From Morchella semilibera (Eukaryota; Ascomycota; Pezizomycetes; Pezizales; Morchellaceae): 64,000 nucleotides of DNA. This document shows, piece by piece, positions 2,465 to 45,929 of this stretch. Location: assembly GCA_009192285.1 (NCBI GenBank), contig CM018603.1, positions 5,081,613 to 5,145,612 on the forward strand, written 5' to 3'. Position numbers and translations under genes: made by a program. How positions within the stretch are numbered: position 1 is the stretch's first letter; each line of letters opens with the position of its first letter. The notes beneath the pieces are model-generated. The model saw only the letters and a list, made by a program, of their open reading frames with translations, made no database searches and was not told the origin of the DNA.

Positions 2465-2870
2465 ATGTCTTCAATTCTTCACTCTCTCCGGCAGAAAAAG
2501 GTCCTGGCAGAGGCCTAGTTGGTGGGCATTCAATTCCCCCTCCGCATGGCACAGAACACTCTCCACGGGGATGATGGCGCTATAATGCTGCAGTATCCTG
2601 TTCTGGCTGAGCGCGCGTACAAATTCAGTATGGCAAATGGCCCTGGGAGTGGGAGGGCTTTGTACCGAGAAGTGTTCAATAATCTACGTGGCGACGAGCG
2701 CGAGCTTCTACGTGCCATCCATGCCGGGAAGAACCATAGAGCAGGTTTTGATCAAATCATCCAGGCCACGGGAAGCCGCTACCTTGATATGAAAGCTCGC
2801 ATTGAGGACCTTGAAGTGTTCATCCAGAAGGAAGAACATGTGATTAATTGCACTGAGGGGTACTGGAATT
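2465..2870 (+). pseudogene. GYNP coiled-coil family, decayed copy 1
   Basis: The frame opens with MSSILHSLRQKKVLAEA, meets a TAG at 2516-2518, then continues open in the same frame. The continuation includes QYPVLAERAYKFSMANGPG, which aligns with the conserved central block of the 36.4 kb copy, and RYLDMKARIEDLEVFIQKEE, which is a coiled coil. The same order (short N-terminus, central block, second coil) is seen in the other copies. The 3' intron and tail could not be placed with confidence; the frame remains open to 3295 but loses coding character after about 2870. I read it as a gene broken by one nonsense codon. The alternative is that translation begins at the downstream ATG at 2546, giving a shorter protein. 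Confidence 0.5.
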
Positions 2871-4011
2871 GGCAGTGCCCCCTCTCCCCGCAGCCAATGA
2901 AGACCCGAAATGAGAAAGGAATGCCAGGTTTTCTTTTGGGAGGGGGGGGGTCCTACTGCTTTCAGCAAGGGTTGCACGGTAGCAACAAACTTGTCATCTT
3001 CTCTCAACACGTGTCTTTGCCTTTAGACAGAACCGGTCTGTCTGGGGTGAATACCATCCAAATAACTTTCAGAGCCTCCTCACATGGCCTGTCTTTCCCT
3101 TTCCTACCCCCAGCTACCCCTCAATTGATATGGTCGGCGTGTGTTACCCCCGGGGGTAGCGTGGTACTGGTGTTCGCGGCATATATCAAGAGCGGGCGGG
3201 AAGGTGTGAATCGAAACCAAACAATGATATCAATGATCACGAGATTGCAAAGCGCTAGATCCTCAGTTCTACTTACAAACACCCCTCAAAGGTGAGAACG
3301 ATTACTTCGTGAGTCGTTAGAACTTTGGAGATTCGCCGTATCCGAATGAGAGAAATATAATATTTCTTGCCCGGGTGTACGCGAGTATGGCAACGGACCT
3401 CTTGGTATAAGCACGTTATGGTATTCCAAAAGCCGACACCATTTCAAGTGATATTAATATTGAAACTAGTGGATAACTATCGGCCTATGTAGTTAATGAA
3501 CTCGGCCGTATATGGATCTTTCATGGTAAGCTCTGAAAACGATGACTCCTTCTGACATTTTTAGATGTCATTAGATCGGGTAGCCTTTTTCAAATTTGGT
3601 TCTAGAAAGGCATTCTTGCATCCTTCCGATACCGGCAAAGGAGACCGAACTAGGAGAAATTGCGAGGCGGGCAGGCCAATTTGCAATTGGTGAATTTGTA
3701 TTCGGCTAACCTCTCCGGGGCACAGGAACGGCCACCCGAGGAAATATTGCTCATGCCCCCTTCCTTCTTGGTTTCCGCGCCCGAAGGGCCCGGAATAAAC
3801 CTCTCCGGGACGGAAATACCCGTTTGGATCCCAATGTTGACTCACCGTATCTTGTAGGGGTCGCCTGTCGTGTCAGGGACTGTACGATGAATATGGAGTT
3901 ATGAACGTGTAAGTGGTGAGTTGGTCAGTGAGAAAGGAAGAATAAATGTAAGTTTCAAGCCGGGCCAAGAGGCCGCCACAGTATAGATAGTTGGTGACTT
4001 GAGGACATAGT
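2871..4011. other. Gene-free tract
   Basis: The frame of the preceding copy stays open to 3295 but shows no motif. The rest has only short overlapping frames on both strands and no repeat that I could bound. Confidence 0.45.
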
Positions 4012-4019
4012 GTCATTAG

Positions 4020-4496
4020 CAGGGTTCTCAATGGTACGTATCAGTATGATTTTCATGCCATACCATACCCACTGTTATATACTGCGGTGGTTATCGAACT
4101 GCATGATACTGTGCGGACTCCTTATCATACCAACTATAATATATCATATTGTAAACGAATGATGTCTTATGTCCCTGCAAGTTCCCTTATTTACTTCATT
4201 TATTGAATGTAGCCCTAATGTTCCTGGAAGTGTTCCAGGGCAAAATCCAGGTTTTCCTTTCCTTTTCCCCCTCTTCCTTGTTCATGAACTACATAAATCG
4301 AGGTTAGTAAGAGTAAAGGTAAATGGAGATTTGTTTGTCAAGTCCCTACTATGATATTCATGCTATTATTGATACAGATGAAATCCATATTCTACCTGCT
4401 ATTACTTAAAGATCACCACACCGTACCTTACTCACTGTACTACCAGCGAGTTTTATCGATATGTATTACAACACCGCACTATCATTGAGAACCCTG
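4020..4496 (+). mobile_element. MITE-A copy 1 (hAT-like, 8-bp TSD)
   Basis: A 477-bp non-coding element has terminal inverted repeats that start CAGGGTTCTCAATG at 4020 and end CATTGAGAACCCTG at 4496. It is flanked by a perfect 8-bp direct repeat GTCATTAG (4012-4019 and 4497-4504). The 8-bp duplication and CAGGG ends are typical of hAT-mobilised MITEs. Three more copies occur in the window (37586-38069, 47469-48196, 48985-49409), and they share the internal blocks around TATAATATAT, TGTTCCTGGAA and ATCGATACAGAT. No transposase is encoded. Confidence 0.9.
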
Positions 4497-4504
4497 GTCA
4501 TTAG

Positions 4505-5210
4505 TGGGGTTAGCATGAGAGGAAAGGGTCGCTCCCTCTAGGGAATCACCAATAAGATCAGTGAATATATTATGATTATACGTTTAAGTTACGGGATATC
4601 TACTAATGCGATAGAATGATTACCAAGGCATTAAAAAGCTCAGGGCTCACAGCGACTATAAATTTGGGGGGACCGGTAAGTCTAATCATTTAGGGGCAGG
4701 GGTAGGGCGGGCTCAGGGATCCCCTATATATAATTGTTTCCTGCCGCTACTCAATGCCGCTGCCCTTGCGGGAGGGGACGCGTAGAGATTATTGGGCAAC
4801 CAGTAATATCAGGTGGGGGGTCGCTACCCCACTCACCCGTTTTATGCTGGCGTTAGAATAAATGCTGCTGTGGATTGCGATCCCGCGCTAGTTTGGTCGG
4901 GTTAGGGACTAGTCTGCTTTACTGGAATCCGTGGTACGAACGGGTACAGACAGGTACGGCCTAAAAAGAGCGGTTTTTTCTCACTGAATCACTCTTTTGT
5001 ATCGTGGAAATCACAGGTAGGAAAAAGAACCCGTTTGCGCATTTCCGGCCCCAGCGGTTAGGTCCTTTAGTTTTGAAACAAAGATTCCAAGACGGATAGT
5101 GTTTAGAATTCGAGATCTCACGTTTTTCAGTAGAATCTTGGGTGCATTATAATGTCGCTGTCGCACTTACGTCGCGTCACGTGCCAAGTGGGTTAGCTAG
5201 CCGCACCCCC
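4505..5210. other. Gene-free tract
   Basis: Nothing supported. A TATATATA run lies near 4722. Confidence 0.4.
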
Positions 5211-5237
5211 CTTAAAGTCCTTAAAGTCCTTAAAGTG
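5211..5237 (+). repeat. Three tandem 9-mers upstream of a gene
   Basis: CTTAAAGTC occurs three times head to tail (the last copy ends in G), about 110 bp before the ATG at 5348. It could be an upstream activating element, but position is the only support. Confidence 0.5.
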
Positions 5238-5347
5238 AGCTTTTTCTACCCCTCAGCATGCTACCATCAGCAACACTACGCTCGATGTATGTATACAACA
5301 ATACTAAATCCTTTATCGTTTCCTGCTACTAACAAAAGCATGTAAAG

Positions 5348-6005
5348 ATGTCATTCGTTCCACCAACTCCTACTTCGGACGAGCTGTTGCTCAATGCCTT
5401 GTTGCTGGAGAAGACACAAAACGAGGCTGATGTTCTCGATATCGAGCAGCGTCTCAGCCAATTTAACTTCAACTACAACCTAGTCTATTACTATGTCAGC
5501 CATTACGAAGACTATCTTTTGTCTCAAGGCTACAACAGAGCGACCGGCGTTCAGGATGCAGCTCTTCTTGAGGAACCGGAATGGGTTGATGAAGCGGTTG
5601 CAAATGTTTCCACTCTGAAGTGGGTAGCACAATTATATAAGGAAGCAGCAGGCAGAGAAAGGTGGAGGTCGCTCGATCTCAAGGTGGTGATTTTGGATTT
5701 GGACGAACAGATCATACCCATCGAATCAAAGGTGCTCACCAGCAAGCAGCACAGGCAAGAGATAAACAACCGTATGAACATACTAAACTTAACCTTATAC
5801 CCACTTACTGATTAGTATTGTAGTGGTTGAAGCTCTGGCTAGTGCACTAGGTAGGCTTTCGATCAAAGGTTCGGCCGGACTGTCTGAGCCACTTCAAGAG
5901 GTGGTCATTGTCGAGAGGCTCTTTCGGAATCTCTTTGATCCACGTACGAACCCTTACATCCTGTATAAACATTGTGTCTCTGCTTACGTTGGTCATAGGT
6001 ATTGA
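5348..6005 (+). CDS. GYNP coiled-coil family protein (5.3 kb copy)
   Basis: Two exons are proposed, 5348-5771 and 5824-6005, joined by a 52-nt intron (GTATGA donor, TAG acceptor at 5823) in phase 1. The product would be 201 residues. An acidic coil covers about residues 10-45. Next comes the family's central block, here YLLSQGYNRATGV (about residues 57-70), and a second long coil (about 85-141). The second exon adds a 60-residue tail beginning VEALASALGRLSIKG. If the earlier AG at 5815 is used the tail is only two residues, so two isoforms are possible. No signal peptide or membrane span is seen. The function is unknown. Exon 1 length (424 nt) and intron phase match the other copies, which is the main evidence that the gene is real. 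Confidence 0.72.
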
Positions 6006-6966
6006 AGCTGTCACTCGTCGGTTTGGAAAACTGACGATCTAAACACGTTATTGTGATGGATGTGGAGGTTTAGGGTCATGGGAAAGCGCTGGAGATTCAT
6101 GTCCACTTCACCGATCTCATGCTGCGTTGTTTACTATGTCCCCGCTTTAGTCATTCTGTAACGATATCTCACTTTATCTCGATTTTAAAAATCTTGTTTT
6201 CCTCCTTTGCTTCTACCCACCAAGCTGGCCGTAGGTTAAATTTCTCAGTTTGCGCTACAGGCTATCAAATTACACGAGATGGGCTCAAGATTACTGCTTA
6301 GCATATCGAAGTTTTTTAGCTTCGCCGTCAAAACCTGGCACACACACGACATCATCTAAGAGGTTTATCGGCGCCCCCCCCCCCCCCCACCCACTCCAAC
6401 CTTCCAACAAATGTCACCTACTTAGCTGAAGCAAACTACAGATCTGACCACCTCGGTCAGGGACCTGGCCGCCCTATACGCCGCACCCCATCATAACCTA
6501 TATCCCACACCAACAACGAATATCAACGTCAAGGCAAATATATTCTTGTCCATCCACATCCACCCAAGTGGAAATCGATATTAGGACGCAGACTCATAGA
6601 AAGGAATACATCTCCATTAGGCCAAACACTACCTCTACCGGCTTGACGGTTGCTTTGTATTCCAGCGGCATCTTGAAATTATGCGTTTTAGATGAGTCCA
6701 TTAGTCTGTGCTTCTAGAAAATTAATACACTGGGTGTATAACTATCTGGCCGCCTTTGACATGATAGACCACCACCGCGGGAGGTGAAGTGATTGCAAAC
6801 CGTATCGTGTGGGAGGGCGGGGATATTGGATGGGAGCAGAGGGGATCGACTAGAGTGTGTCACTAGGCATGTCGAGTCGCCGCTGCTTCGGGGGTGAGTA
6901 AACCAAGATTTACCCCAAGTACCATTGGTGTGGCTAATTTCTTCGTTCCGGAATCCGCTCATCAGG
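6006..6966. other. Gene-free tract with poly-C run
   Basis: No gene is seen. A run of 16 C residues lies at about 6373-6389. Confidence 0.4.
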
Positions 6967-6969
6967 CCG

Positions 6970-9108: not shown

Positions 9109-9652
9109 ATGACGAACCGGTCCCCCGCCATCTCCCACCTACATGACCTCCAGAATGAGCTACGTAACCTAGAGAACGTCATACCAGCCTCAGAGACTAC
9201 GTTGACAATGCTCAATTCCTACCTATACAAGCTGGACGGTGATATCCTTAGGCAACACTTGCGTCTACAGGGGATGGGATATGACTACGATTTGAATCTC
9301 CCGAGCCGCGGGACCAATGATTGGTGGCGCGTACAACGGATGCTAGCTCGTCTTGTCAACCGTAGACAAGCAATGGAGCGGGCGACGCATAGGGCACGTA
9401 CGATCGCGTGGGAACTCAAAACGTGCAAATTGAACATTTTGTCCTTAGAGAGCCAGATCAAGGACACCGAGGCTATTATTGAGCATGAAGCCCTTATGGG
9501 AGGGAGACAGAAGGACTTAGATGATTGTATGACCCACTTGATATCCTCCTTGCGTTCGTTTTCTAATGCCCATCACTCTGGTTACTCCAGGCCCTGCGGC
9601 GCATCACCTAGGGAGTGAGGTTACTCGGGATCCGTCACTTGCATTGCAGTAA
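9109..9652 (+). CDS. GYNP coiled-coil family protein (9.1 kb copy)
   Basis: Exon 1 is 9109-9526 and exon 2 is 9591-9652. The 64-nt intron has a GTATGA donor, a CTAAT branch site and a CTCCAG acceptor, and interrupts a codon in phase 1. The 159-residue product starts with the coil HDLQNELRNLENVI (about 11-40) and runs into LYKLDGDILRQHLRLQGMGY, the family's central block (about residues 44-63). A second coil rich in R, K, E and L covers about 70-139, and the tail is CPAAHHLGSEVTRDPSLALQ. Reading through the intron instead adds a different 30-residue tail ending at 9618. No membrane segment. Function unknown. Confidence 0.75.
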
Positions 9653-10953
9653 ATGGGCTAGACACCGGTCACAATTCTACTTAGTCCGGGCCGGCAACGT
9701 CGTGTAGGATTTCCATTTATGCGGGCAAGAAGGGAAGGTTGGTTTTCATACAAGGTCATGGTATATTCTTTAGCATTCAGGTTCTACAACCCAAGCTCTA
9801 GGCCAGTGTAGATTTCATTTCTAAGACTTTTTTGTTCACCTCTTCCACGACCTTATAGCTTTTACATAATGACAATCAGAAAAGAGAAAGAACTTGTATT
9901 CCTTGGTTGCTACTGTATATACACAGAATCCAATCTTTCCACGAGTCTGTCCCAACATGTCTCAATCCTACATCCTCCTAGATGCGGGCCCTGCGGCGCC
10001 CGAGTCTTCATTCTCCCGGTCCCATATTCAACCTCCCAGAATCTATAGTCCTAGCCTCAGCCCCTTCTGGATACCCTCACGGCTCGCTAGCCGCTGATAC
10101 GGTCATGTCAGCGGCACGCCCTGTCGAGCGATTACTTTCCCAGAAGCCAATATCTCCTTCGGAAGGGAAAGCAGGGTCGGTGTAATATCCACTAGGCTTG
10201 AAAAATATCTAGGAGACTCGGGGAGTAAAATAGCGTGTAATAAGGGTCTTATAAGGGGGCCCTCTCCCTGGGGAGAAAAAGGGCTGCGTAAAATGATCCC
10301 AGGGCCGCCATTGATTGCAGTGCTAGGGCTGGCGCTCCCCCCGTGGCGTAGGATCTGCTTCCTGGGGGATTATCAGGCCAGAGCTGCCCCTCCTTCTCTA
10401 ACTATGTATCTATAAAGTCTCCCCGTCGCCCTTTCATAAGTATGTGGAGTTTGTCTCAATCTTCGCATACCCGGTCCTCATGGGCGCGGTATGATCGACA
10501 GGTGCGGGCGCAGATATGAATCTGGGTGCCTGCGCTGGGGTTCTAGTATCACCCTCTCTACTGTTAATTGCAGGGTCCAGCTTCAGTGCCGCAACCCGCC
10601 TTTTCTTTGTGTAGACGTCTCTCTAATGTGCGCAGACGCCCCTCTAATGAAATGATAGGTAGAGAGCAAGGGCCGGGTTATGGATATGAAAGGACGTACA
10701 GTTACGTGCAACCACTCCCCTCTTTTCGTATCGGCTGCCCAGATGTCCAGCCACGCGCCAAGATTCTCAACCAAAAACTTCAGGGAAGCCAAGCCCTTTC
10801 CCTTTGCTGTTGTGGGCATTATCACTTGCCATGCTCATAATTCCCCACCGCCTCTTCTGCGGCTACGCCACCAAGGCACCCAGAACATAATACAAGGTAC
10901 GTCCAATGTCAAACAATCATTCCAATTTTATTATTAATAAGTTGTGCAAAGCT
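9653..10953. other. Gene-free tract
   Basis: Short overlapping frames near 9894-10185 and 10568-10937 lack motifs. The last part is the presumed promoter and leader of the next gene. Confidence 0.4.
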
Positions 10954-11525
10954 ATGTCTTCGTTCCAAGGTCTCTCTATCATGGCCGCTGTCATGCCCGG
11001 CTCATCCTACGTCCATGATATTCAATCTCTTAGGGCCAGCCTCATCGACCAAGTTGCTAGGAGGCAGTACTTAATGACGAGTTTTACCTGCAACATTTAC
11101 GCGCTCCAAGTGTCCATCGTAGGACATTCGGCCGAACTAACTTGTCTCCGTTCTACCAGCCGTACCGGCTCCGCTGAGACCGCTTCTCGTATTGGGTATC
11201 TAGTCGAAGCCATAGCCATTCTCCACCAAACGCTTAACGAATGTGAGGAGGCCAAATCCCGTGTCGCACATGAAATGAAGAACCTCCAGAAGAGCCTCAT
11301 TGAGACCGTGGATGCGTGTGAACAACTTGGCAACATCGTCACGGACGCAGAATTCGCCGAGGCTCAGGATGAATATGACTATTGTATTTTCTTGTTTTCC
11401 TGCCCCCACCCCTGCCACATACTAGTCTAATAACTTCAGACGTGATCAGGGCATGCCGCGGTATGCGTCAACCGACCCCCGGAAATGGGGGCGAGGAGCG
11501 CTACCTTGGCTATGACTCCACTTAA
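10954..11525 (+). CDS. GYNP coiled-coil family protein (10.95 kb copy)
   Basis: Exon 1 is 10954-11383 and exon 2 is 11440-11525. The 56-nt intron has a GTATTT donor, a TCTAATAAC branch region and a TTCAG acceptor, in phase 1. The product is 171 residues. An in-frame ATG at 10906 would add 16 residues; 10954 is preferred because it starts a motif-like MSSFQG and lies nearer the usual family start. Coils cover about residues 24-60 and 78-140, and the central block is degenerate here (NIYALQVSIVGHSAELTCL). The tail is basic then acidic (RACRGMRQPTPGNGGEERY). No membrane span. Of the intact copies this is the most diverged in the central block. Confidence 0.68.
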
Positions 11526-13288: not shown

Positions 13289-13751
13289 CAAGGACGCCAA
13301 TGGGCCAGCCCGGGCTGGGAAGTAGGGTCGGCCTGGCCCGGCCCATGCTATCCAAGTCATGGCCTGGCCCAAGCCAAATAGCCCGGGGTAGGCCCGGGCC
13401 AAATATTTATGGCCCAGGCTCCCACAAATACAAGTATTTGTCACAATTCAAACTAATTTTATCGAGATTAATGTAGATAGGATCGAAAATGCTGCAATTC
13501 AATCCGCATTTTATAGTATGAAATATACAAATGTTGTTTACGTTACCTCTCATAGTACAACGTGTCTATATATCAAGGAAGAACTGCTAAGATTGTATGA
13601 GCACCTTCAGGCCTGGGCCTGCCCATTTAGCCCGGGCTAAAGATTGGCCTCCGCCTGGCCCGGCCCATCGAATAAAATCTAGGGCCCGGCCTGGCCCGCC
13701 CAAAAAGAGCCCGGGCAGCCCATCTCAACCCACGGCCCATTGACGTCCTTG
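13289..13751 (+). mobile_element. MITE-B copy 1 (GGCC-rich, hAT-like)
   Basis: A 463-bp element begins CAAGGACGCCAATGGGCC and ends GGCCCATTGACGTCCTTG. It is flanked by the 8-bp direct repeat GAATAACC (13281-13288 and 13752-13759). Both ends are extremely GC-rich with many GGCC/GGGCC palindromes, while the middle (about 13410-13600) is AT-rich. A near-identical copy lies in reverse at 16395-16856. The 8-bp duplication suggests a hAT-type transposase acting in trans. No coding capacity. Confidence 0.9.
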
Positions 13752-13759
13752 GAATAACC

Positions 13760-16179: not shown

Positions 16180-16919
16180 GAACGGGAATGCCACAACTCA
16201 ACCTGCCACCTTTGGTAGGAAATATAGAGATGTCGTTTACCTGTTCACTTACAGTACGAAAGTGTCTGTATATCAAGGAGGGGCCCCAAAGGGGGTGTAA
16301 GCACCTTGAGGGACGAGCTTGCTGATTTAATCCGGGTAAATGTGAGTCTCTGCCTAGCCCGACCCATTGAGTAAAATTTATGGCCTGGCCTAGCCAAGGA
16401 CGTCAATGGGCCGTGGGTTGAGATGGGCTGCCCGGGCTCTTTTTGGGCGGGCCAGGCCGGGCCCTAGATTTTATTCGATGGGCCGGGCCAGGCGGAGGCC
16501 AATCTTTAGCCCGGGCTAAATGGGCAGGCCCAGGCCTGAAGGTGCTCATACAATCTTAGCAATTTTCCTTGATATATAGACACGTTGTACTATGAGAGGC
16601 AAGGTAAACAACATTTGTATATTTCATACCATAAAACGCGGATTAAATTGCAGCATCTCCGATCCTATCTACATCAAAGTCAAGAAAATCAGTTCGAACA
16701 GTGACAAATACTTGTGTTTGTGAGAGCCTGAGCCATAAATATTTGGCCCGGGCCTACCCCGGGCTATTTGGCTTGGGCCAGGCCATGACTTGGATAGCAT
16801 GGGCCGGGCCAGGCCGACCCTATTTTCCAGCCCGGGTTGGCCCATTGGCGTCCTTGAGCCTAGCCCGTCCAAAATAACCTAGGGGGACCACCTCAACTAT
16901 TGGCCCTTTAATGTCCTTA
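16180..16919 (+). mobile_element. Older MITE-B copy, split by a younger MITE-B
   Basis: Bases 16180-16394 and 16857-16919 together resemble the right half of MITE-B copy 1 (shared GTTTAC, TATATCAAGGA and TAAGCACCTT-type blocks, ending near AATGTCCTTAG), but are strongly diverged. A younger copy (16395-16856) sits inside. The left end is not recognisable. Confidence 0.7.
16395..16856 (-). mobile_element. MITE-B copy 2, nested in an older MITE-B
   Basis: A 462-bp element starts CAAGGACGTCAATGGGCC and ends TTGGCGTCCTTG, and reads as the reverse complement of copy 1 along its whole length. It is flanked by GGCCTAGC (16387-16394) and AGCCTAGC (16857-16864), a 7-of-8 match that fits an 8-bp target duplication. 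Copies 1 and 2 face each other about 2.6 kb apart. Confidence 0.88.
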
Positions 16920-17249: not shown

Positions 17250-17731
17250 ATGCCCACCGCGATTGATACCATGTTGCTAGGCTGCACCGGGCTAAAGCCC
17301 GCATTCCTGCAAAGCCTAAACTTGCATAAAGCCCGTCTCTTGGCCACTATCCAGCGCAAGCAGAGCCTTCTTGTCCGCTACAAGCTCCAACGCTATGATA
17401 TTGATAGCTGGGTCTGCAAGGAGTACGTGAACCTTTATCAACCATGGAAGATCGATTAAGAGGGTGTATGGAAGGAGATTAGCAGCCTTCGGCAGAGTGC
17501 GAGGGAGATGGAGGTTTCTGGTCGACGGGTGGAATGCGAGATGAAGGACATGCTGTGGGAAATGGGGGAGTTAGGCGCAGCAATCGTCATTGTACAAGGG
17601 TGGATTGCTAATCACAGTGGAGAAGGTACGATTTCTTGGGAACAGTTATGGTTCAAGGGGAGATGCTAATGGTCCCACTGGCAGATACAGCGTTCAGTGT
17701 TGTAGACCAAACGAGGGAGGTCACAAATTGA
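17250..17731 (+). pseudogene. GYNP coiled-coil family, decayed copy 2
   Basis: An open frame from ATG 17250 ends at TAA 17457-17459, but the same frame continues as EGVWKEISSLRQSAREMEVS and more. It reaches a GTACG donor at 17626 in phase 1, a CTAAT branch site and a GGCAG acceptor at 17684, then a 15-residue tail (DTAFSVVDQTREVTN) and TGA. So the whole family layout is present with one internal stop. The N-terminal coil is basic (LNLHKARLLATIQRKQSLLV). The GY motif is not obvious. A 35-nt intron removing the stop seems too short, so I call it a pseudogene. Confidence 0.65.
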
Positions 17732-18252: not shown

Positions 18253-19035
18253 GGCTTAATTTGGACGGGAGTGGTACTGTTATATCTCCCGGAGACAGAT
18301 ATTAGAAACAAGGCTAAATCCCTACCAATCTGTGCGCAATCAATCAAGCAGTTCTGTTTGATGATTGCAAGAGAACTTTTATAAAAGGAAATTAATCCTC
18401 GTTATTCATAGTAATTAGAGACTGCCGTCCCATCTAACCTCAAACCTTCATATTGGTGGGGTTACCACTCCATGTTCAGAAAACCCTTTGCCGGTACCCT
18501 TGGGCTATCTACAGACTACCCCCTGCAATGTAGGATCATAGCAACCTGGGCCTTTTTTGTTTTGTACGGCTGCCTAGCGAGTGTTTACTTTGTTCTCATG
18601 ACTGGAAGGTCCTGGGGACAGCAATTGATAGTTTTGCTGGATTTATTCAAGGTTACCTTGCCATAGACAAAGCGATGAAATTTCATAAGGCATTGAGGGA
18701 AATTGTGAATATCTATCAAATTTAAGGTAACTGCAAAGTACAAGAATCAGCAACTGACAAAGCCAAACACTCCATAAGTGGTTATACAGATATTACTCTC
18801 AACCCTCCCACAAACATTCTCATGATATCATATTCTAGCGCGTAATCCTTTAATGTCTTTGGAGTTGAGAGGGGAGAAAAGAGCTAAAGTTTCAGAGCCA
18901 CTCAAAGACGAAGAGTTTGATTATTTGTTCCTGGATGCTGGAGTCCGTCCGCAACTCTACTCCCCTACGGCCCACCTTTTACCCCCAACGTGCCCGTTTA
19001 CTCCGAATTGATGAGCAAAGCGACTTGGCATATTT
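18253..19035. other. Gene-free tract
   Basis: Short frames only; nothing supported. Confidence 0.4.
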
Positions 19036-19255
19036 TCAAATTTTCTGCAGTTCTTCAAATTCTATGATTTCCCAATCGATATCCTTCTTTCGGTCGCTGA
19101 CAATCTATTGCTGAACCTTATTCAATTCGTTGACGTATTGAGCGCCTTCCATATCCTCAACTAGAGGTGTGATAGCTTCAATTTCCTCTACGGTGAAATG
19201 CACTACCCCCAGCACGGGGTTATAGCCTGCAGCACGTAGTTCTTCTTCGATCGCA
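19036..19255 (-). pseudogene. GYNP coiled-coil family, minus-strand fragment
   Basis: On the minus strand the frame reads EEELRAAGYNPVLGVVHFT, the best match to the family's GYNP block. An acidic stretch (VEEIEAITPLVEDMEGAQ) follows, then a TAG at 19105-19107, then in the same frame RKKDIDWEIIEFEELQKI before TGA at 19036. That last segment matches RKDIKWEILEIEEKM of the 45.2 kb copy, which makes the relationship strong. The 5' part is missing where an LTR-1 tip (19256-19311) abuts. This is the only copy found on the minus strand. Confidence 0.72.
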
Positions 19256-19418
19256 CCGGGACAATACCATTGTACTACTAGTACCGCACTTCCAAGCAAT
19301 CCTGTAACAGCCAGCTAAGGGTGAGGTTCGTCCGCTTGGAGAGTGAGTTTGTTGGGGATGCAAGGGTGTAAAGACCAGGTTGTTTATTTTGCGCCAACTC
19401 ATATTGTACAGAGGTAGG

Positions 19419-25917: not shown

Positions 25918-26414
25918 ATGCCCCGTCCTTACCTACGGCGTCAACAACATTTCTATCTCAACTGGGTCGTCGAAATGAGATAGAAAGCCGTAGAAGACAA
26001 AGGCAGCCTTCGCCACAAAACATTCCAATACTATCGTGTCATGGGCGTGATCGTGATGCAAAGGCATACGACAAAGGAAATGGAGGCCTCACTCCCCGCG
26101 GAGGGCACCATCACCGAGGACAATCGGATCTAATTAACGGAAAAGCTCAAGGAGCTGGAGAAAGTCAGGTATATTTTTGCTCGCATTGTCCTCGGTATGA
26201 AGGGGCATGAGGAGAGGAGAAACGACTTAAATGATGAGCTCAAGGGTGTTAAAGATCTTCTTTCAGACCTGAACACCCAGATTGAGGAGCATCCAGATAT
26301 TACCCAGAGAGGCATTGGTGAGAATGAATCCCTGCTCTCATTCCCGATACAATCATTCTCCCTTTCTAACTGTTTACAGACGATCCTCTTTCGGTCCCAC
26401 GCCTATGCCCCTAG
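25918..26414 (+). pseudogene. GYNP coiled-coil family, decayed copy 3
   Basis: From ATG 25918 one frame runs through two stops (TAG near residue 22 and TAA near residue 72) to a GTGAGA donor at 26318. That donor is in phase 1, as in the intact copies. A CTAAC branch site and a TTTACAG acceptor (26379) follow, then a short tail DDPLSVPRLCP and TAG. The C-terminal half is a clear coiled coil (RRNDLNDELKGVKDLLSDLN). The 400-nt length up to the intron is within the family range. Two stops and a weak central block make it a pseudogene; the coil alone (ATG near 26197) might still be translated. Confidence 0.62.
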
Positions 26415-28501: not shown

Positions 28502-29077
28502 ATGAATTTCATTAACCTCCCTGAAGCAATCCTGCAAAGTATGTACCTCCCGAACTCTGCGATAATAGTTACTAAGACTAACTAAAACGAATCAGACGCC
28601 GGAGTTCGTAAGCCAAAGCGGGGCTATGCACAATACCTCAATCAGTTAATTACTGACCTTACCACTGACATCGCAACTAATGATGCCACCATTCATCGAC
28701 GCAACTATGAGCTCTACCGTCACGCCGGCCTGGTCTATCAGACCCGCCAGAAGCTTATCCTGGCAGGATATACTCCCACATCCGGAGTTACTACGCTCCA
28801 TGTGAGGACCGCGGGGAGAGTTAACGCTCTCTTACAAAGAATGGACGACTTGAACATGATACAGGGGACTCTCGAGGAGATCCTGGGGGATTTCGACGAG
28901 TCTGGGAAGGACATGAAGCTGCAGAAGCTAAGTCTTGAGGATTTGCTTGGTCAGGAAAATGAAAGGGTTGAGCTCGAAGATAGTACAATCAAGAAATGGG
29001 CTGGTAAGTGGTGTTCCTCATCCAAAACGTAAGCTTCTGTCTAACCTTCCGTAGAGGATGTTCGCAAGGCCTGTTGA
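28502..29077 (+). CDS. GYNP coiled-coil family protein (28.5 kb copy), 3 exons
   Basis: Exons are 28502-28538, 28596-29003 and 29055-29077. The first intron (57 nt; GTATGT, ACTAAC branch, TCAG) and the second (51 nt; GTAAGT, CGTAG) are both in phase 1. The product is 155 residues. The N-terminus is MNFINLPEAILQN, where INLPEAILQ resembles the start of an F-box (LPxEILxxI). A coil follows (YLNQLITDLTTDIATND), then LVYQTRQKLILAGYTPTSGV, the best-preserved central block, and a long acidic second coil to about residue 148. The third exon adds only EDVRKAC. The 408-nt middle exon is exactly the length of the 36.4 kb copy's. No membrane span; function unknown. Confidence 0.78.
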
Positions 29078-31544: not shown

Positions 31545-31913
31545 ATGCTATCACAGCATGGAATCAGGACACTGTTGGCGCGCCGCAGCGAGATCGAGGC
31601 TACTCTCGCCACCAACATCCAATTAGCTGAGCGCCTCAACTACGAACGCTACATCACCCGTGGCGAGGTCTATCTTCTTCGCCAGATCATCATTTGCGCC
31701 GGCCATAACCCGGTTCCTAATACCTCTCCCACCCAGGATGATATGCCTAGCGCGGTCAATGAGAACCTCCGCTCTTTGGATATTTTGACCGGATCTCTTC
31801 AACGCTTGGATGATCGTGCAATGATGGTTGAGAGGATGATTAGGTCAGGGAAGGATTGGGCGGAGAGGATCGAGGAGGAACTCAGGATGAATGGTGTGGA
31901 GATAAAGGAGTAA
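31545..31913 (+). CDS. GYNP coiled-coil family protein (31.5 kb copy)
   Basis: An intact 122-residue frame, the shortest intact copy. It shows the family layout clearly: a first coil (RTLLARRSEIEATLATNIQL, about residues 8-30), the central block RGEVYLLRQIIICAGHNPVP (about 39-58), and a second coil (about 70-115). A GTGTGG at 31894 sits exactly in phase 1 where other copies have their intron. It is a weak donor and I cannot pick an acceptor, so I give the unspliced form ending GVEIKE. It is preceded by a TATA box. No membrane segment. Function unknown. Confidence 0.75.
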   Translation: MLSQHGIRTLLARRSEIEATLATNIQLAERLNYERYITRGEVYLLRQIIICAGHNPVPNTSPTQDDMPSAVNENLRSLDILTGSLQRLDDRAMMVERMIRSGKDWAERIEEELRMNGVEIKE

Positions 31914-32965: not shown

Positions 32966-33427
32966 ATGTCTCTCAATAACGGGTCAAGGCCAATATCTCT
33001 CGCCCACTCTACAATCCCCCACGCGGGAATGGTACACCCCAACCCCCGCCCTTCCTCCATGGCCAATTCAGGCGGGGAGTCTAACCTCCTTCTGAGGATT
33101 CTCCACCACTGGTTCTGTGAAACCGGAGGCGGGATTTACTCCACACGCCTCTTGCTTCTCGAAGCAGGCTATGACCCTGATCAGCGCTCAATCGATGTCA
33201 TCGCCAGTCACAATCCTGCCGCATGACCTTCTGCCATTTTGCCCCACTCCCAGGTCTGGACCTACCTTGTCAGATTAGAAGAATGCATGGGTGAGGGGGG
33301 CAGGGTTGAACAGACTGGCAGCTGTGTTGGACGAGAGTTGGGAGGCCACAGGCAGGGGATGTTGGAACTTGGGGAAACAAGGACTACCATTATCACTTTC
33401 AGGGTCTGGCATAGAGGAAGCCAATAG
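32966..33427 (+). pseudogene. GYNP coiled-coil family, decayed copy 4
   Basis: ATG 32966 opens a frame that holds GGGIYSTRLLLLEAGYDPDQ, a clear central block. It stops at TGA 33224-33226 and then continues in the same frame as PHSQVWTYLVRLEECMGEGG to a stop at 33425-33427. The continuation resembles a second coil but is glycine-rich and less helical, as expected of a decaying copy. In-frame ATGs at 33029 and 33059 are alternative starts. No convincing phase-1 intron was found at the 3' end. The first half could still make an 86-residue protein. Confidence 0.6.
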
Positions 33428-34091: not shown

Positions 34092-34636
34092 ATGGCCGCT
34101 AATTCCACTAGCCTGGTTCCCCCTTCGGTTAGCACTAGTCAATGCACAGAATGGGATATCTATATCAATCAGCGCCTATCATCGTTGAACACGGGTATCG
34201 CCGCAAGGGAAGCCCAAATCCACCAGTTAACACATGAACGTTACCTGCTGTCCAGCTCGATCTTCCAGGTTCGGGTTCAACTTATCAGTCTCAGCTACAA
34301 CCCAGATGCTTTTTCTCCTCGTTCACGACTTCCGCATAATCGTGAGATCCATCGCAGGGTCAGGCGCATTGCGTATCTTAAAGAGCAGAGACACGACGTT
34401 GATATGATACTTAAGCATTACCATCAAGATTGGAATGACCAGCGGATGGAGAAGCTATTATTTGAACAAGAGATCAGAAGAGACAATGATATTATTCTTG
34501 AGCATGAGCGTATGCTTGAGCTGGCATCGGGTATGTTTCTTCTCCTCCTTCCTCGTTCTAGTTCGATAGACTAACTGACACACATAACTATCTACATAAA
34601 GGATCCATAGATGATACCCATTCTGAGACTTCCTGA
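34092..34636 (+). CDS. GYNP coiled-coil family protein (34.1 kb copy)
   Basis: Exon 1 is 34092-34530 and exon 2 is 34602-34636. The 71-nt intron has a GTATGT donor, a CTAAC branch site and a TAAAG acceptor, in phase 1. The product is 157 residues. I chose ATG 34092 (AAAATGGCC, good context) over the in-frame ATG at 34056. The first coil (NQRLSSLNTGIAAREAQIHQ) leads into SSSIFQVRVQLISLSYNPDA, the central block. A second, basic coil (residues about 85-145) is rich in R, H, D and E. The tail GSIDDTHSETS is short, acidic and soluble. Exon 1 (439 nt) has exactly the length of the 39.2 kb copy, and both second exons begin GATCC. Confidence 0.8.
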
Positions 34637-36317: not shown

Positions 36318-36325
36318 TATAAAAG
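36318..36325 (+). promoter_or_regulatory. TATA box before the 36.4 kb gene
   Basis: TATAAAAG, 84 bp before the first-exon ATG at 36409, followed by a CA-rich pyrimidine leader typical of fungal promoters. Confidence 0.65.
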
Positions 36326-36408
36326 GGACTGAGAGCACCTAAACCCCTACACCCTCCACAAACCCCCGTACCCATATCAAATCTCACAACCTTTGTCCAA
36401 GGATCAAA

Positions 36409-37111
36409 ATGAACAACTGTAAGTAAAACATCGATCATTGATAAAATCCCCGTACGATAGACTGCCATACTGACTTCTTCTAAGCTATCAATCTTCCATC
36501 CCACATGTCATACACCGAATGCCTTCGCAGGATGATCGACGAGCGCGCAGCTTTCCAGAATATGGTAACAGACTCCAATAACGAGATCATCGACCATAAA
36601 AACAATCTCAACCGCCAGGTCGGCACCGTATTCCTACTTCGCCAAGAGCTCCTTGACCACGGCTACAACCTCGCGACTCGCTCCATGCCTCCTCTAGCAC
36701 CTGATGAAATGAAGGCTCTCATCTTCCAGTCTAGGTATCTGCAGGACAGAGTGAATCGTACCGAAACTCGGCTTCGCAGCCTTGCCAATGACCATGCCGA
36801 CTTGAGGGAGACTGTGCAAGATCTTGATGAAACAATTAGCAACTTTCAGAAGTTGATGGTAGCTCGCGATGGATGGGTTACTTCCAACACTGGTATGTAG
36901 GCCCCCAAAGCCACTCTGACCCCCAAATAGCACCTACTAAAGTCTCCCAGAGAAACGAAAGGAGACTGCATGTGATATTGAAGCTGATAAGGGGGAGTAC
37001 GCGAGACTTGTTGGTTCTTGCAAGTGGACAAGGATGGGGTACGAAGTACATGAGGGGGCAGGTACCATTGGAATGTGCCAGGCCTCAGTGTTTAAGTGTC
37101 ATTGGTTGTGA
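36409..37111 (+). CDS. GYNP coiled-coil family protein (36.4 kb copy), 3 exons
   Basis: Proposed exons are 36409-36418, 36485-36892 and 36951-37111. The first intron (66 nt, GTAAGT to CTAAG) and the last (58 nt, GTATGT, CTACTAAAG branch, CCCAG) are both in phase 1. The 192-residue product starts MNNSINLPSHMSYTECLRRM. INLP is shared with the 28.5 kb copy, which also has a tiny first exon. The central block is VGTVFLLRQELLDHGYNLA, and the second coil is TETRLRSLANDHADLRETVQ and onwards. The tail from exon 3 (about 53 residues, starting EKRKETACDIEADKGEY) depends on the chosen acceptor. Other AGs at 36930 or 36942 give other tails. A start at ATG 36505 without the micro-exon is the alternative. 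Confidence 0.75.
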
Positions 37112-37585: not shown

Positions 37586-38069
37586 CGGGGTTCTCCATAA
37601 TATGCATCGGCTACGCTATACCGTACCCATCACTATGTGCTTAGATGGTTATCGAGCTGTATGATATTCAGCAGATTCTTTATCGTACCAACTATAATAT
37701 ATATGCATGTATGAAGTATAAATAAATAAATAAATAACCATAACATATGGTACCATGACCGAGTGACATCTTATGTTCCTGGAAATTTTTTTTTTGTTTA
37801 CATCAGTAATCGATGTTCCTGGAAATGTTCCGGAGCATAAATATAGGTTTCTCTGTTTCCTTCCTCGTTTTTTAATTCATGAAGTGCAAATGAAGCCATG
37901 ACTGGGCGTCAAGTTCCTACGGCATGAGGTCCATGGTATTATCGATACAGATAAAATCTATGCCCTACCAAATATTACGTAAAAGTCACTATATCGTCCT
38001 TGACCCACTGTAACACCGGCGAATATCATCGGTACGTATCACAATACTAGAGAATCGTTGAGAATCTTG
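37586..38069 (+). mobile_element. MITE-A copy 2 (hAT-like, 8-bp TSD)
   Basis: A 484-bp copy with ends CGGGGTTCTC and GAGAATCTTG, flanked by the 8-bp repeat TTTTAGTG (37578-37585 and 38070-38077). It is more diverged than the copy at 4020. It contains a short AAAT repeat (about 37719-37735) and a 26-bp retroposon (37787-37812). Confidence 0.85.
37787..37812 (-). mobile_element. 26-bp poly(A) micro-retroposon
   Basis: Nine T then GTTTACATCAGTAATCG, sitting between two perfect 14-bp copies of ATGTTCCTGGAAAT (37773-37786 and 37813-37826). Read on the minus strand it is a 17-bp 3' end followed by poly(A). Other MITE-A copies lack it, so the empty site is known. Confidence 0.85.
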
Positions 38070-38077
38070 TTTTAGTG

Positions 38078-39200: not shown

Positions 39201-39941
39201 ATGAGTTCTAATGATCCTCTTGTAGCAATGCCCTCGAAAGCTGAACCCCCTCGTCCGGACCTGAAATGGTCTAGGATCCTCATGAATCGGCACATCAATG
39301 CTAGGTTTGAGCTTGATCAGAGCGACTATGAGATAAAGCAGCTCACCAAAACCATTTACCACATCGAAGGAGAGCTCCTCATGCAGCATCACCAGCTTAT
39401 TGAGGACGACAACAACCCCACCGCGCCGGCTATCCATCACCGCCTTACCCAGGAAAAGCAATTCCTGGTGCAAGAGATCATCCGGCACAACGAGCTTCTC
39501 TCCGCCCTTGAGCAGGACCTTCGTGACCATGGATGCACCAACGCGGACATTAGGGAAAGGCTTGATTATACTATTGATGATAGAATCATGGATCTTGACG
39601 CCTACGCTGACTATAGATATTGGGAAATCGAGCAGAACGGTATGTCTCGCCCTGAATCGCAAAATACCTCTACTTCTAGTATGATATGTGGCTAATTATA
39701 TCTAGGATCCACTGTTACTGATGACCAGTTCGCACACGCAATTACGTCTGAATACATGAACTGGATGTCTACGGGCAATACGTATCCGCAGGGGACCCAT
39801 CAAGGCAACAACATTACCCATAACATGGTCTCTTCTGCCATTAGCAACACCTCCGATAACCATACTCTCTTTCGCTGTGCCGCTTTGGTTACCTACACTC
39901 TAATCATTGCTCTTTTATTCTGTCTCTTTTTGCTAGATTGA
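39201..39941 (+). CDS. GYNP coiled-coil family protein with tail anchor (39.2 kb copy)
   Basis: Exon 1 is 39201-39639 and exon 2 is 39706-39941. The 66-nt intron (GTATGT donor, CTAAT branch, TCTAG acceptor) is in phase 1. The 224-residue product has a first coil (ELDQSDYEIKQLTKTIYHIE) and the block GELLMQHHQLIEDDNNPTA, in which the GY is lost. A second, acidic coil covers about residues 80-145. The second exon gives a polar N/T/S-rich spacer and ends with one hydrophobic segment, LVTYTLIIALLFCLFLLD, at the extreme C-terminus. That is the layout of a tail-anchored membrane protein with the coils facing the cytosol. Without splicing the protein ends at 39695 and is soluble. No signal peptide. 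Confidence 0.82.
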
Positions 39942-40340: not shown

Positions 40341-40348
40341 CTTAGTGC

Positions 40349-41449
40349 CCAAGGATGGGTCTGTGGGGATTCGCCACGAGAGGTTAATGGGAGAGAGATG
40401 GGAACCACAGCCAACCTTGGGGCAACGACGAACCTGGGACAACGAAAGCACAGATTTCAGTCAGCCGAGTGGCTGCATATCACTGTCCCGACTGACATAC
40501 ACCCCTGTTCGTCGGTCAATTAATTTCGTCGTTACCCCCGGCCCGACTGTAATTAAATCTCTTTTTCCTATGCTGCTGCTTATGATATGTAAAACCCCTA
40601 CCTAAAGGTTTCCGTGAAAGGCTGAAAGTAGTTGAGTGGTGGAACCCATACCAGTCTAACTAACAGCGGGGTTCTACTAGATCATTCATTATACCTTAAC
40701 CACTCTCTTTTAACAATTCCCAAGGGTCAAAATGTTTTCCCCTATTCATTATTATAGCTAACCGTGTTGTGATTCTACACTTAGGACCTGGTTCCACCTA
40801 GCTTGGGTGGTGACTGGCCCTTCCACGAAGGTCCCAGGCAGCGTCCTCTTTTATATGACCGATAACTAGGACTATATTTGGGAAATCCACAACAAGACGG
40901 CTGCCCAAGTTTTCCTTGATTGTAAATATTCAAAGATCTCCCTCAATACCATGCTCCATCTGCAGTTGATAAGCGGTAACATGACCAGTCCTAAGGCTCC
41001 ATGTGTGCGGTCATAACCAGAGACAGCCTGTCCTATACGGACCTATTGTGGTGGATCAAAAAGTATATCAAAGGTTTAAATCTGGGAACGTGGTGGACTA
41101 CACACGGCAAATGCTTTGGCATGGAGATAACCTTCATTCGCTGCTGGAGGATGAGTATTTGATCCAGTGGACAATTACCCTTGGATATCTCTATGGCATT
41201 ATCCTGCTAGCTTACCTACACCCAAACCGAGACCATCTTCCTCAGCTAGAGTCATAGAGCTGGATAGGGGCTCTGCCCGGGGCACCTTATAAGAGGACGA
41301 GTCTTACATTCGCAGGGCCATGGAGGGGTGGGGGAAGCTAGTATGCCGGAATTTTACCTGTTTAGTGATAACTTGTTGCTTCTTTTCCTTGTTGAGGTGG
41401 CGGTAGATAGAGACGGTGTTTCAAGGGGTCATGAGTTTATTGATTCAAA
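40349..41449. other. Gene-free tract; one doubtful small ORF
   Basis: An 84-codon frame at 41003-41257 ends with a hydrophobic run (WTITLGYLYGIILLAYL). It has no homology I recognise, and neighbouring frames break up quickly. I leave it uncalled. Confidence 0.35.
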
Positions 41450-41790
41450 CCGTGCTTCCAGAACGGTTTAAGAAGACAGTCCAGCTCTGGTTTGCGTATT
41501 CACTATTTGCCTCAGTTCGGTTTGTGGCTTGGGGGGGGGGCTGGCCTTAGATGCAGGTGGAGCTCCTCGTAGAGGGTACGAACACCATGACAGGACCAAC
41601 CTAACCCATGATAGATTTAGTGTAGAGTCTCTGCTAAGCTAGCGCCAAGGCATGGGAGTCATTCTGCTATGTAAACTCGTGCTTATTTGACCGGTTCAGT
41701 TGTAGGCGGGTTCGGCTCAGTCCAGTCCGGTTGTGCCGAAGGTAAAGGCCAATTACAACCGTTTGAAAGACCTGGAGTAGGGGTGTTCTG
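41450..41790. mobile_element. MITE-D-like diverged copy
   Basis: The block is rich in CCGGTTCAG, CAGTCCAGTCCGGTTG and TTCGGTTTG words like those of the element at 6970-7310. Its right end, read in reverse (CAGGTCTTTCAAACGGTTG), resembles that element's start. The ends and target duplication are not clear. A G-run lies near 41531-41540. Confidence 0.4.
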
Positions 41791-44700
41791 GGGAGGAATT
41801 AGCTCGGTGTCGTCATACCCAGGGGGTACATTCAATCAATGTCTTAGACCAAAAAAAGGTAGAATAATTCCGACCCATCGGCCCCCACGGCACATTCATC
41901 GGACATGTATCAAACGGGCCTCCCATTCACAAAAAAACTTAATATTCTGGATGTTATCGTATAGATAGCCCATTCAATAGACGCTCATATAGCTATTGAT
42001 GGCCAAATTGGTAAGGCCTAGTACCCCAAACCAATATCGCAATTTCAGATAGTAGAATTATACTGAATTTATGACAGCGTCCCCCCCCAGATAAGGGAGG
42101 AAAGAAATGAAGTACCAAACGCCCAGATCTATCCCTACCAAACCTTCACGCCCACTAGACCGCACCCGAGCGCCTTAAGGGCTCATTGTTTGCTCCGTCT
42201 AGCCCTCCTGCTAAGTGATTTGATATCGGGACTGCGCTGAATTGATTGATTGATACTATTTTGATATCCAAAGCGGATATCGTCTTTCCTTTTATAGTAA
42301 TCAAAAATAAAGAAAATTATCTGTATAAAGAAAATAGATGTCTATAAAGAGATAAAGAGATAAAGAGATAAAGAGCTGATTCGTCAGCTTCTTTATGTAT
42401 GGAGATAATCCAGCACTAAGGACCATTCTTTTCCCGGCTTTATCCAGGTTTCTGGCGGCCGTAATCTACTAGTCATTCTCGTAACCTCTAAGCCACGAAA
42501 CAAGTTACAGGTGCTACGCTTACTCCATGAACTCTAAATAGCATCATTGAGCGAGTTGCACCTTGTCAAGAACCCCATCGGATATATGAGCAGCATTCAC
42601 ATCGGCGGTAAAGCTCCCTCTACCACATTTCTGTGGTTGAAAAACACCTTATACCTTATGCCCCAATTTACCCTTTGAGAATCTGTTTAGTGTCCGCCTT
42701 TCTCACAACGGTGGACATGAAATCCCTTGCCGCGTTAGTTACCTCCACTGCACCCCAACCTCAAGCTCCGGCGCCCATTCTTCCCCCCACGCTACACTGA
42801 TGGAGGCTGAAGATGAGGATGCATGACGTTTAACAAACGCAGGAAGAAGGAGATGCTACCCTATCTCCATTGTTTGCCCGTTCGTTAAGACGCAATATTA
42901 TTAGAGGTTCTTCCATAGATATATCTAGCTCATGCATGATACTTTGGGCTCTGACTCAAACTCCGCAAGCGACCCATTTACCATGGCATGGATGCTGCTA
43001 TAATGTATGAAAAACGTGTTTATCTATAACGAGTGGCTTCAGCACAAATCAGCACTCCGGAGAGGAAGACCCATGGTTTATGTTTAGCATAGATAGCCGC
43101 GCCCCAATTCTACCACGACTCCCCTATGTGAATCGGCCTCATATTGCGTGTATCCGGGAGACACGTACGAGCAAAGCCACGCCCCAAAAACAGAGTAATT
43201 TGTGCCTTGAACTCGGATAGAAACAACTCCGAAGGAGTTGAATTGGCGCATACCTATGGAAAATAGTTATTAGCCCGGGTACATTCATATCGTGAAACTG
43301 CGACGCTCTGAAGTAGGCACTAGTCCTAGATTTGGGGCGAGATACTGGCATCTGGAGGGCTGGCGGGCTGCATGTTCTCGGGAGTAGCACCGTAGCCACG
43401 GTGGTGAAAATTCCCTTGTCGCCATGGCTACGCAATGTATGTGTAAAAGATACTCCTGGCTTTCTCCTGTCGCCCGATATATCGTTTCCCGGAGCCAGAA
43501 GCCCGCATAGAGATTAACAGGTAGGGTTACCATAATAGACTCCCCTGGTGTGAGGCGACGGATGGCTTTGACGCACCTGTGCATAGGGTGCTTTAGCGGG
43601 TTGCCCCTAGTGTCGCTGGGGGGTGGTGGACTCTCTTCTTGCCAAGAGAAATATACCTAGGAGAACTGTCAACTACCCCCAGAGTCACCGAGGGATGTGA
43701 TATATGCAGCTAAATTTCTATAACCCACCGATGTAGCGATGCGGGCCCCGAAATATAGTTCCGCTAGAAACCCACTACCTTACAGTCAGGGTCTCCAATA
43801 GGCCGGCCTGGGCTCTAAATACCCCATGCCCGGCTCAAAGCCCGGTGTTGCAGCCTTAGGCCTGGCGCGATTATGCTCGGGCTTGGGGCCTGAATAGCCC
43901 AATGTTACAACCAGGGACATCTTGATATAGAGGTCAGGCTAGGAGAAGGTATGATTTCCAACATTCAGACGAAAAATATTGGTTCTTCCGGGCGAACGTT
44001 AGCAGCTCCGCTATACACTGTCAATAGTTTGTATATCTGTATAACAGGTTTTGTGTCACCCGAGTGATAGTGTATGACTAAACCGCCAAACTGCTAAACC
44101 GACCGCTATGCCCACAGATACAGACTAGTCCCAGAGGTTGTTCGTCTCCAGATTTCCAGCGCCTGTAGTGAAGACACTGCGGCTGAAAATATCGCCTAAT
44201 CTATATCTATCACTCTCTGGTTTAGTAGGTTTCTGTTGCGACCTAACGTACGAGTGATATTTCATGATCTGTGCATTAGCCAAATTATTGCTAAACTTGT
44301 TGGAGTCGGGCTAGCTGTCATAGCTAAGTTAGGTGCTATATTCGTACCCTTTGTGTCGCTGTAACTATGGTAGCCTATCCCTCTCTCAAGATATTTACTC
44401 CTGTCACCTATTAATTTTGGTAGTACGAATGTGGCTTTCTCCTTCATGGAAAGCCTTGTAAAGCCTGTTTGACTCAGATCAACCCGCTGGAACTATAAGC
44501 AATTGTGAATACCGTGTCCTATGTCATAGAATATTTAGGAGATCTCCCATTCCCCGTAGCTCTGTATTGGGACCTGTGGAACCCGTGAGTTACCTAGAAA
44601 TATTAAAATTGGAGTTTTATGTAGCCGGAGCAAGTTCGCGAGATTGTGCTGCTTTCTCCTCCAAGACTCTTAGTAGCATATCTCTCACAGTGATATTTCT

Positions 44701-45234
44701 CCACAAGCAAGGATATAAAAGCTGGGATAGGAATTATAATCGATACCCGGTAATATTGCTGCCCGAGTCGAGAATATCCCGCACGAACACTACCCATCGC
44801 GCTGGAGCCATAGCAGTCTTGACCTACTGGGAGAGATAATTGCCGGCGCTGTACTTTCTATCATAATCGTATCATCCACCGGTACAACTAGGTCTAGGAT
44901 TTATTGCCTTGTTGTACAATTACACGAAGGGGACAGTGGGGGTTGCAACGAATAAAGGGGGTCACCCTTTCCATCCACAAATACGCGCCACACACATGAA
45001 TCTCAGAAGTGGCAGCCCTTCAAGGTTGTATTTTTGGATGGTGGGCAGACCTACATGTGACCTTTGGCCACCGTATTAGGGACGTGTTGTTCTGCTCTGC
45101 TACCTTTCCTACCTAAGCAATCAGAAACCACCCGCACAAAACATCCTAACCAGCACCAACAAAATCACTCACCTCAGTACGCCCTTTGCACCCACCAACT
45201 CTCTTTCTACCCCACACGTCTAACTCCCGAAAAA
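41791..45234. other. Gene-free tract with minor repeats
   Basis: An AAAGAGAT tandem repeat (about 4 units) lies at 42346-42376. About 43786-43900 is a GC-rich patch starting CAGGGTCTCCAATAGGCC that resembles worn MITE-A/B ends. Frames at 43139-43584, 44262-44447 and 44567-44839 have no motif, and no gene is supported. Confidence 0.4.
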
Positions 45235-45929
45235 ATGCCGAGAAATCTCTCTCGTGACGCTTTGAAGGCAGATCAGAACCGGCGCCTCTCCAGGTTGCGT
45301 CTCCAGCTAGCTCGCACCGAAGCACTTATCGTCCTCCGCACCAAGGACCACTACAGGATCGATGGCGAGATCTTCATGCTAAGGCTCCGCATTATCGACC
45401 TCAAGGATGAAGACACTACGATGGTGGCCATTCTGGAGGACCGTATCGGTTGGCTCAAGGGCCATATGAATGCCAACAATAGTGCTGCTAGCTACCAAGG
45501 GGTGATCAGGAAGGATATCAAGTGGGAGATTCTGGAGATTGAGGAAAAAATGACGAAAGATGATTCCCTGAGAGAGGCTTGTAGATTGCGCTTGGAACAG
45601 GAATTTGGTAAGCAGATAGTCTCTCTCGTCCCACCACTTGAAGCTAATGACTGGATATCAGAGACGAAAAGGGCTAGGAGGGCAGCTGAGGCTGAAGGAC
45701 GCTCGACCCAAGGCTAGTAGGAGATCCCTAGTAACACCCTGCTTGTCGATAGCTTTCTACGATCAATGTCTCAGGGAAGGAGATCGAACAAGAAGGATGG
45801 AGGCAGGGAATCATGGGGTTTTTCGGTGTCATCGTTTTATTATTCTTTTGTTTGGCTGCTATCGTACCTGTTCCTGAGGAGTATGTTCCTTTTTTTCTCC
45901 TCAAGTGTGCCATAGGTTTCTTGACGTAA
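45235..45929 (+). CDS. GYNP coiled-coil family protein with optional tail anchor (45.2 kb copy)
   Basis: Exon 1 is 45235-45607 (MPRNLSRDALKADQNRRLSR). A GTAAGC donor at 45608 in phase 1 can join two acceptors. The near one (45661, with CTAAT branch) gives a basic soluble tail (ETKRARRAAEAEGRSTQG) and a 142-residue protein ending at 45717. The far one (45774, TGTCTCAG) gives a 175-residue protein whose tail holds GIMGFFGVIVLLFFCLAAIV, a membrane span, and ends at 45929. Exon 1 has two basic/acidic coils around HYRIDGEIFMLRLRII. Its end, RKDIKWEILEIEEKM, matches the minus-strand fragment at 19.1 kb. An upstream in-frame ATG at 45064 is unlikely because its leader is proline- and histidine-rich. 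Which acceptor is used needs RNA data. Confidence 0.75.

Follow-up and report, generated by a model that had tools for sequence, protein, structure and literature searches.

Between positions 2465 and 45929 of the window, the 64,000-nucleotide stretch of DNA that was analysed, lies an array of 14 copies of a small-gene family, 13 on the plus strand and one on the minus strand. The copies almost certainly form one real family. The array is best read as an old, tandem eukaryotic (fungus-like) family of hairpin proteins with an exchangeable tail exon, in which a pattern is kept over sequence, and as a whole this reading stands about evenly between right and wrong. The family itself is tandemly duplicated and fast-diverging, and it is probably lineage-restricted within eukaryotes, relatives having been sought in viral and prokaryotic sets.

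Nine copies (at 5.3, 9.1, 10.9, 28.6, 31.5, 34.1, 36.5, 39.2 and 45.2 kb) have an open hairpin exon, and the other five (at 2.5, 17.3, 19.1, 26 and 33.1 kb, that at 19.1 kb being the minus-strand copy) carry in-frame stops. The first-pass annotation had correctly counted this division between strands. Homologous tandem copies of which some have decayed are thus present, as in a birth-and-death family. With a profile built from eight strong copies, from which the tested copy was excluded where it was a member, the nine open copies score 13.9 to 52.7 bits, and none of 1000 shuffles per copy, each preserving the exact hydrophobic/polar pattern of that copy, reaches the real score. Reversed sequences score 6.1 bits at most. 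The open exons, all on the plus strand, lie at 5348-5771 (424 nt, 13.9 bits), 9109-9526 (418 nt, 25.4 bits), 10906-11358 (28.5 bits), 28596-29003 (52.7 bits for 28601-29003), 31545-31910 (open up to the stop, 26.0 bits for 31545-31895), 34092-34530 (439 nt, 41.8 bits), 36485-36892 (29.7 bits for 36505-36892), 39201-39639 (439 nt, 25.8 bits) and 45235-45607 (373 nt, 30.6 bits). Four of the copies with stops likewise exceed all 1000 of their shuffles, namely those at 2465-2900 (plus strand, one stop, 11.0 bits), 17250-17626 (plus strand, one stop, 14.4 bits), 18990-19257 (minus strand, two stops, 17.1 bits) and 33065-33420 (plus strand, with the central block and one stop, 11.9 bits). Of the 14 copies originally claimed, 13 are therefore above every pattern-keeping shuffle, and the copy at 25984-26320 (plus strand, one stop, 7.9 bits) is marginal, its score being reached by 5 of 1000. 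The minus-strand copy lacks the first helix on the side where it borders a dispersed repeat (19241-19306).

Two further tests point the same way. A profile of six core copies was searched against 1335 six-frame stop-to-stop pieces of the window of at least 30 residues, and each core copy was recovered by the other five at E-values from 5e-13 to 0.013 when left out. When the six-copy profile was applied to ten copies, the score of the 36.5 kb copy was reached by 2 of 500 pattern-keeping shuffles and those of the other nine by none. The recovery of held-out copies by half-profiles, whose failure had been named as a refutation, was run over 126 splits, in each of which four open copies made the profile and the remaining five were searched together with 1389 non-copy six-frame pieces, the 10.9 kb copy being trimmed to 10984-11358. 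In this split-half test 534 of 630 held-out copies outscored the whole background, and in 50 of the 126 splits this was true of all five together; the 5.3 kb copy was the weakest (recovered in 23 of 70 trials). Pairwise likeness is low, with an identity to the 34.1 kb copy of only 12 to 26% and several pairs of copies at z near or below 0. Two ORFs with KGKGV at 56.6 and 58.7 kb were considered as paralogues and rejected (208 of 500 shuffles).

The splice sites of the array are predicted from sequence, and in most open copies they place a phase-1 intron directly after the hairpin. The gene-model scan gives a phase-1 donor and an acceptor there at 5.3, 9.1, 28.6, 34.1, 36.5, 39.2 and 45.2 kb. 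At 31.5 kb there is a possible weak phase-1 donor read by eye (GTGTGG, at 31896), and at 10.9 kb the scan found no phase-1 donor, only phase-2 candidates, so that the phase-1 intron ascribed to all copies holds for most of the open ones. A phase-1 donor (G|GTACGA) can also be read by eye in the decayed 17.3 kb copy. The 5.3 kb exon would be followed by a donor C|GTATGA, a 52-nt intron and a 60-residue tail exon (5772-6005), the 34.1 kb exon by a 71-nt intron and an 11-residue tail (34531-34636), both on the plus strand in the gene-model scan, and the splice model of the 9.1 kb copy gives it a 20-residue tail. The 28.6 kb exon has a strong donor at its 3' end, and the donor of the 45.2 kb exon is at 45608. 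Strong donors (GGTATGT, GGTAAGY) number ten on the plus strand of the window, and five of these stand at the end of a hairpin exon, all in phase 1, a placement with P of about 6e-9 if donors were spread uniformly and for a donor pattern that was picked after viewing these five. The hairpin coding length of 352 to 445 nt closely matches the range of about 350-445 nt first described, and the length of 439 nt given for the copies at 34.1 and 39.2 kb was also borne out; the 445 nt at 28.6 kb includes an upstream exon and the 352 nt at 31.5 kb uses the weak donor, both by eye.

At the 5' side, the open frame of the 28.6 kb copy lacks an ATG upstream of the hairpin, and this copy and that at 36.5 kb probably begin with an additional short exon that ends at a phase-1 donor. 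The probable exons, on the plus strand, are 37 nt long at 28502-28538 (donor GTATGT) and only 10 nt long at 36409-36418 (donor GTAAGT), both donors being read by eye and both exons being followed by an acceptor pattern. In 5 of 10 copies a branch-plus-acceptor pattern, written after looking at the sequence, directly precedes the hairpin, compared with a frequency of 8.4% at positions in general and 10.1% at ATGs, and the window holds short candidate introns with branch-like motifs. The promoter signal is weak, a TATA box being present in 2 of 11 upstream stretches at a background of 0.11, with the start taken for 28.6 kb one base off.

The favoured spliced tails are 7 to 78 residues long and different in each copy, and the 36.5 and 45.2 kb copies allow several. 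Those at 34.1 and 39.2 kb both resume after the acceptor with GAT CC and thus begin with GS. The 78-residue tail exon of the 39.2 kb copy (39706-39941, plus strand) ends in a hydrophobic, membrane-anchor-like segment that stops one residue before the stop codon and has a best 19-residue hydropathy of 2.66 in the spliced frame. A possible tail exon of the 45.2 kb copy (45775-45929, plus strand) has a stronger segment (hydropathy 2.94), in a by-eye reading that needs a 167-nt intron and is not among the scanned gene models; its end is also the end coordinate of the array as earlier noted. Hydropathy in 600-nt stretches of the window has its 95th percentile at 2.56, and a hydrophobic segment downstream of the exon exceeds it in only 2 of 9 stretches, which is suggestive and insufficient as a family trait. 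Among the nine open copies only that at 39.2 kb has a clearly anchored tail. A likeness of the tail at 39.2 kb to that at 45.2 kb (NH..FRC, 7 of 2000 shuffles) is weak, as it needs a 45.2 kb splice reading other than the one with the hydrophobic segment.

The description of the array as an old, fast-diverging local family agrees with what the copies retain and what they have lost. Among the six core copies, identity at codon positions 1, 2 and 3 is 0.40, 0.47 and 0.32, in an alignment that was made on protein and so favours the coding frame; third positions are near chance while amino-acid similarity persists, and mean similarity is positive only in the coding frame of this protein-made alignment. 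The open frames have a coding composition, GC content by codon position being 0.56, 0.35 and 0.58 in eight exons. The non-coding frames of the exons contain stops, except for one open reverse frame at 39.2 kb, where an open frame alone is therefore weak evidence. No same-strand DNA similarity was found at E up to 0.1 among eight copies taken with 600-700 nt of flank. Likeness falls somewhat with the distance between copies (rho -0.36, Mantel p 0.024, nine copies), which is what tandem duplication would produce. The paralogues are close to saturated at silent sites, and for this reason dN/dS cannot be obtained from them; the pattern is consistent with selection for architecture across the copies and does not prove it. 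Repeat-induced point mutation (RIP) was rejected as a cause of the divergence. Its cut-offs are 0.89 for TpA/ApT and 1.03 for (CpA+TpG)/(ApC+GpT), and none of the nine open exons, with values of 0.42 to 0.80 and 1.06 to 1.77, is RIP-like on either measure.

The family alignments hold no invariant column and two conserved blocks. The first reads Y-x3-G-x-(I/V)-x3-R-x2-L-(I/L)-x2-G-Y-N-P, and the second, D-x-(K/R) followed by L-(E/D)-x2-I, lies in helix 2, in addition to the central block first described. Structure prediction, another proposed check, gave the same hairpin for two distant members. With the 34.1 kb copy at the head of a ten-row alignment, AlphaFold2 places helices at residues 15-66 and 83-145 (pLDDT 87.8), and with the very different 5.3 kb copy heading an alignment of eight rows it places them at 10-59 and 77-140 (pLDDT 90.8); both models share a shape of two long antiparallel helices, and they are not independent, since the alignments have most members in common. 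Many sequences with two coils may also be predicted as hairpins by AlphaFold2. A hairpin fold of the family is nonetheless quite probable on these models. The first coil, central block and second coil of the earlier description are thus predicted to be one antiparallel two-helix hairpin, of which both coils would be the arms, and the central block would form the final turns of helix 1 and the capping turn. A concentration of conservation at the hairpin tip was looked for and rejected (Mann-Whitney p 0.52), and a binding site is accordingly not indicated.

Elsewhere in the window, an ankyrin-repeat ORF (51114-52262) contains the only Pfam domain above cut-off among 20 window sequences scanned, and two tandem 114-nt copies that are 84% alike (50556-50783) lie upstream of it, possibly in its promoter. 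A separate gene at 55180-55940 on the minus strand seems, by eye, to have an intron followed by a strong hydrophobic segment at its C-terminal end; the part of it that was scanned matches neither Pfam nor the hairpin profile. A long inverted repeat pair (13289-13752 and 16394-16856) is GGCCGGGCC-rich and 92 to 99% complementary, with its arms about 2.6 to 3 kb apart, and pieces related to this GGCCGGGCC-rich repeat occur at 40.3 and 60.2 kb; it is possibly a transposable element. A dispersed multi-block repeat with constant block order is present in up to four copies (4035-4496, 37593-38069, 47798-48196 and 49015-49409), those at 4.0 and 47.8 kb being 85 to 95% alike. Scans of the window for tRNA genes and Rfam families gave no match.

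Each open copy would encode a hairpin of two antiparallel helices, about 120 to 150 residues long. A tiny first exon would sometimes precede the hairpin, and in most cases a phase-1 intron would come after it, then a tail exon that is freely replaced and can supply a membrane anchor. The hairpin may be a self-associating or partner-binding cytosolic module and the tail may set its location, anchored at 39.2 kb and soluble in others. Paralogues would drift apart under a tolerance for every sequence that preserves the helix pattern, and copies would arise and die. The function of the family, hairpin pairing, membrane binding and recognition included, we can only infer, and any one given function is at best unlikely. 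Recognition among paralogues or between strains is a possible role. Perhaps the copies are hypervariable paired hairpins, each pairing with itself or with a chosen paralogue through its own helix surface and directed to membrane or cytosol by its tail exon, in a combinatorial coiled-coil recognition that would not involve NLR, HET or pore-forming proteins; this is a very improbable proposal. Another alternative is a family for self/non-self recognition, conflict or effector functions that is diversifying and variable through positive selection. Local paralogues, copies with stops and variable tails are what such a family might show, and lineage-specific genes of Neurospora are reported to cluster with HET-domain genes (PMC10684091). 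Against it, the 20 window sequences scanned contain no HET, NLR or NACHT domain, and we consider it unlikely. In the nine hairpin exons, a Pfam search at E up to 1 found none of the helical allorecognition domains HeLo and SesA.

Alternatively, the array could belong to a known helical-hairpin system, such as the ESCRT-III/Vipp1/PspA superfamily or prefoldin-like chaperones, as a local branch that has diverged beyond sequence detection. The four best PDB matches of the 5.3 kb model are Vipp1 chains (query-length TM of 0.66 to 0.70, with E from 0.03 to 0.09), a Vipp1 chain stands at rank 21 for the 34.1 kb model, and prefoldin appears weakly, as subunit 4 in the PDB sequence search (E 0.25) and once in Pfam (E 0.2). 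However, neither model has a PDB match at E 0.001 (best E 0.032), and chains of axonemal doublet microtubules, a PI3K complex, Rad50 and V1-ATPase match the models about equally well, as any long hairpin would. Nor was there a Pfam match to PspA or Snf7 at E up to 1 in the nine hairpin exons, and this explanation is decidedly unlikely. No Pfam family passed its curated cut-off in these nine exons (best E 0.0046), and the PDB profile sequence search returned mostly generic coiled coils, with a best E of 0.0013 to a designed chimeric coil. A fold search of one model against viral models gave no match at E 0.001. Viral contigs (two copies searched) and prokaryote GTDB genomes (one copy searched) contained pattern matches of which none was confirmed as a relative, as expected for a eukaryotic family, and no published description of such a family was found by title and start of abstract in the literature searched. 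The label of a seemingly undescribed family thus holds as far as the sources compared, namely Pfam, the PDB, one library of viral folds, contigs of viruses and prokaryotes, and the literature searched.

That the copies are pieces of a transposable element, or of its accessory protein, spread locally is very unlikely. The window is rich in dispersed repeats, the minus-strand copy adjoins a repeat edge, and in Pfam the 31.5 kb exon weakly resembles a transposase (E 0.27), at a score far short of the cut-off. Yet same-strand DNA similarity is absent among the eight copies compared, in the exons as in the flanks, 13 of the 14 copies have the same orientation, and none of the 20 window sequences that were scanned gave a transposase or reverse-transcriptase match above cut-off. 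Unrelated coiled-coil proteins might also look alike by convergence or chance through common heptad patterns, and the low identities, the pairs without pairwise signal and the generic coiled-coil matches in the PDB might point that way. This explanation is largely refuted by the shuffles, which fall short for 13 of 14 copies, and by the exon end and intron phase common to most open copies; the low scores of reversed sequences also speak against it, and it is most improbable.

Read as an old tandem family of hairpin proteins, the array is a clean case in which protein pattern, exon end and intron phase outlast DNA similarity among paralogues, and it can test how far coiled-coil proteins drift while the fold is kept. 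A family profile would help to annotate genes that are probably called orphans. Should the tails prove to set location, they would represent a simple way to re-target one module.

Among known systems, Vipp1, PspA and ESCRT-III resemble the array in having a long antiparallel helix pair of similar size, as seen in the fold search. They differ in that the match is not significant and the Pfam sequence signal is absent at E up to 1. ESCRT-III, Vipp1 and PspA also have further helices and form polymers on membranes. The Neurospora lineage-specific clusters are, like the array, clustered genes with few or no known domains (PMC10684091); the likeness is one of description, and the 20 window sequences scanned include no HET-domain gene. 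Closest in evolutionary pattern are the synaptonemal complex proteins (SYP and others), in which length and coiled-coil layout are kept as in the array and the sequence diverges (PMC8598163). That work concerns animal orthologues, whereas the array consists of local paralogues with small predicted hairpins and variable tails; the comparison is one of likeness. Its authors ascribe the divergence to neutral evolution and a lack of constraint (PMC8598163), and by analogy the same explanation may hold for the hairpin array too.
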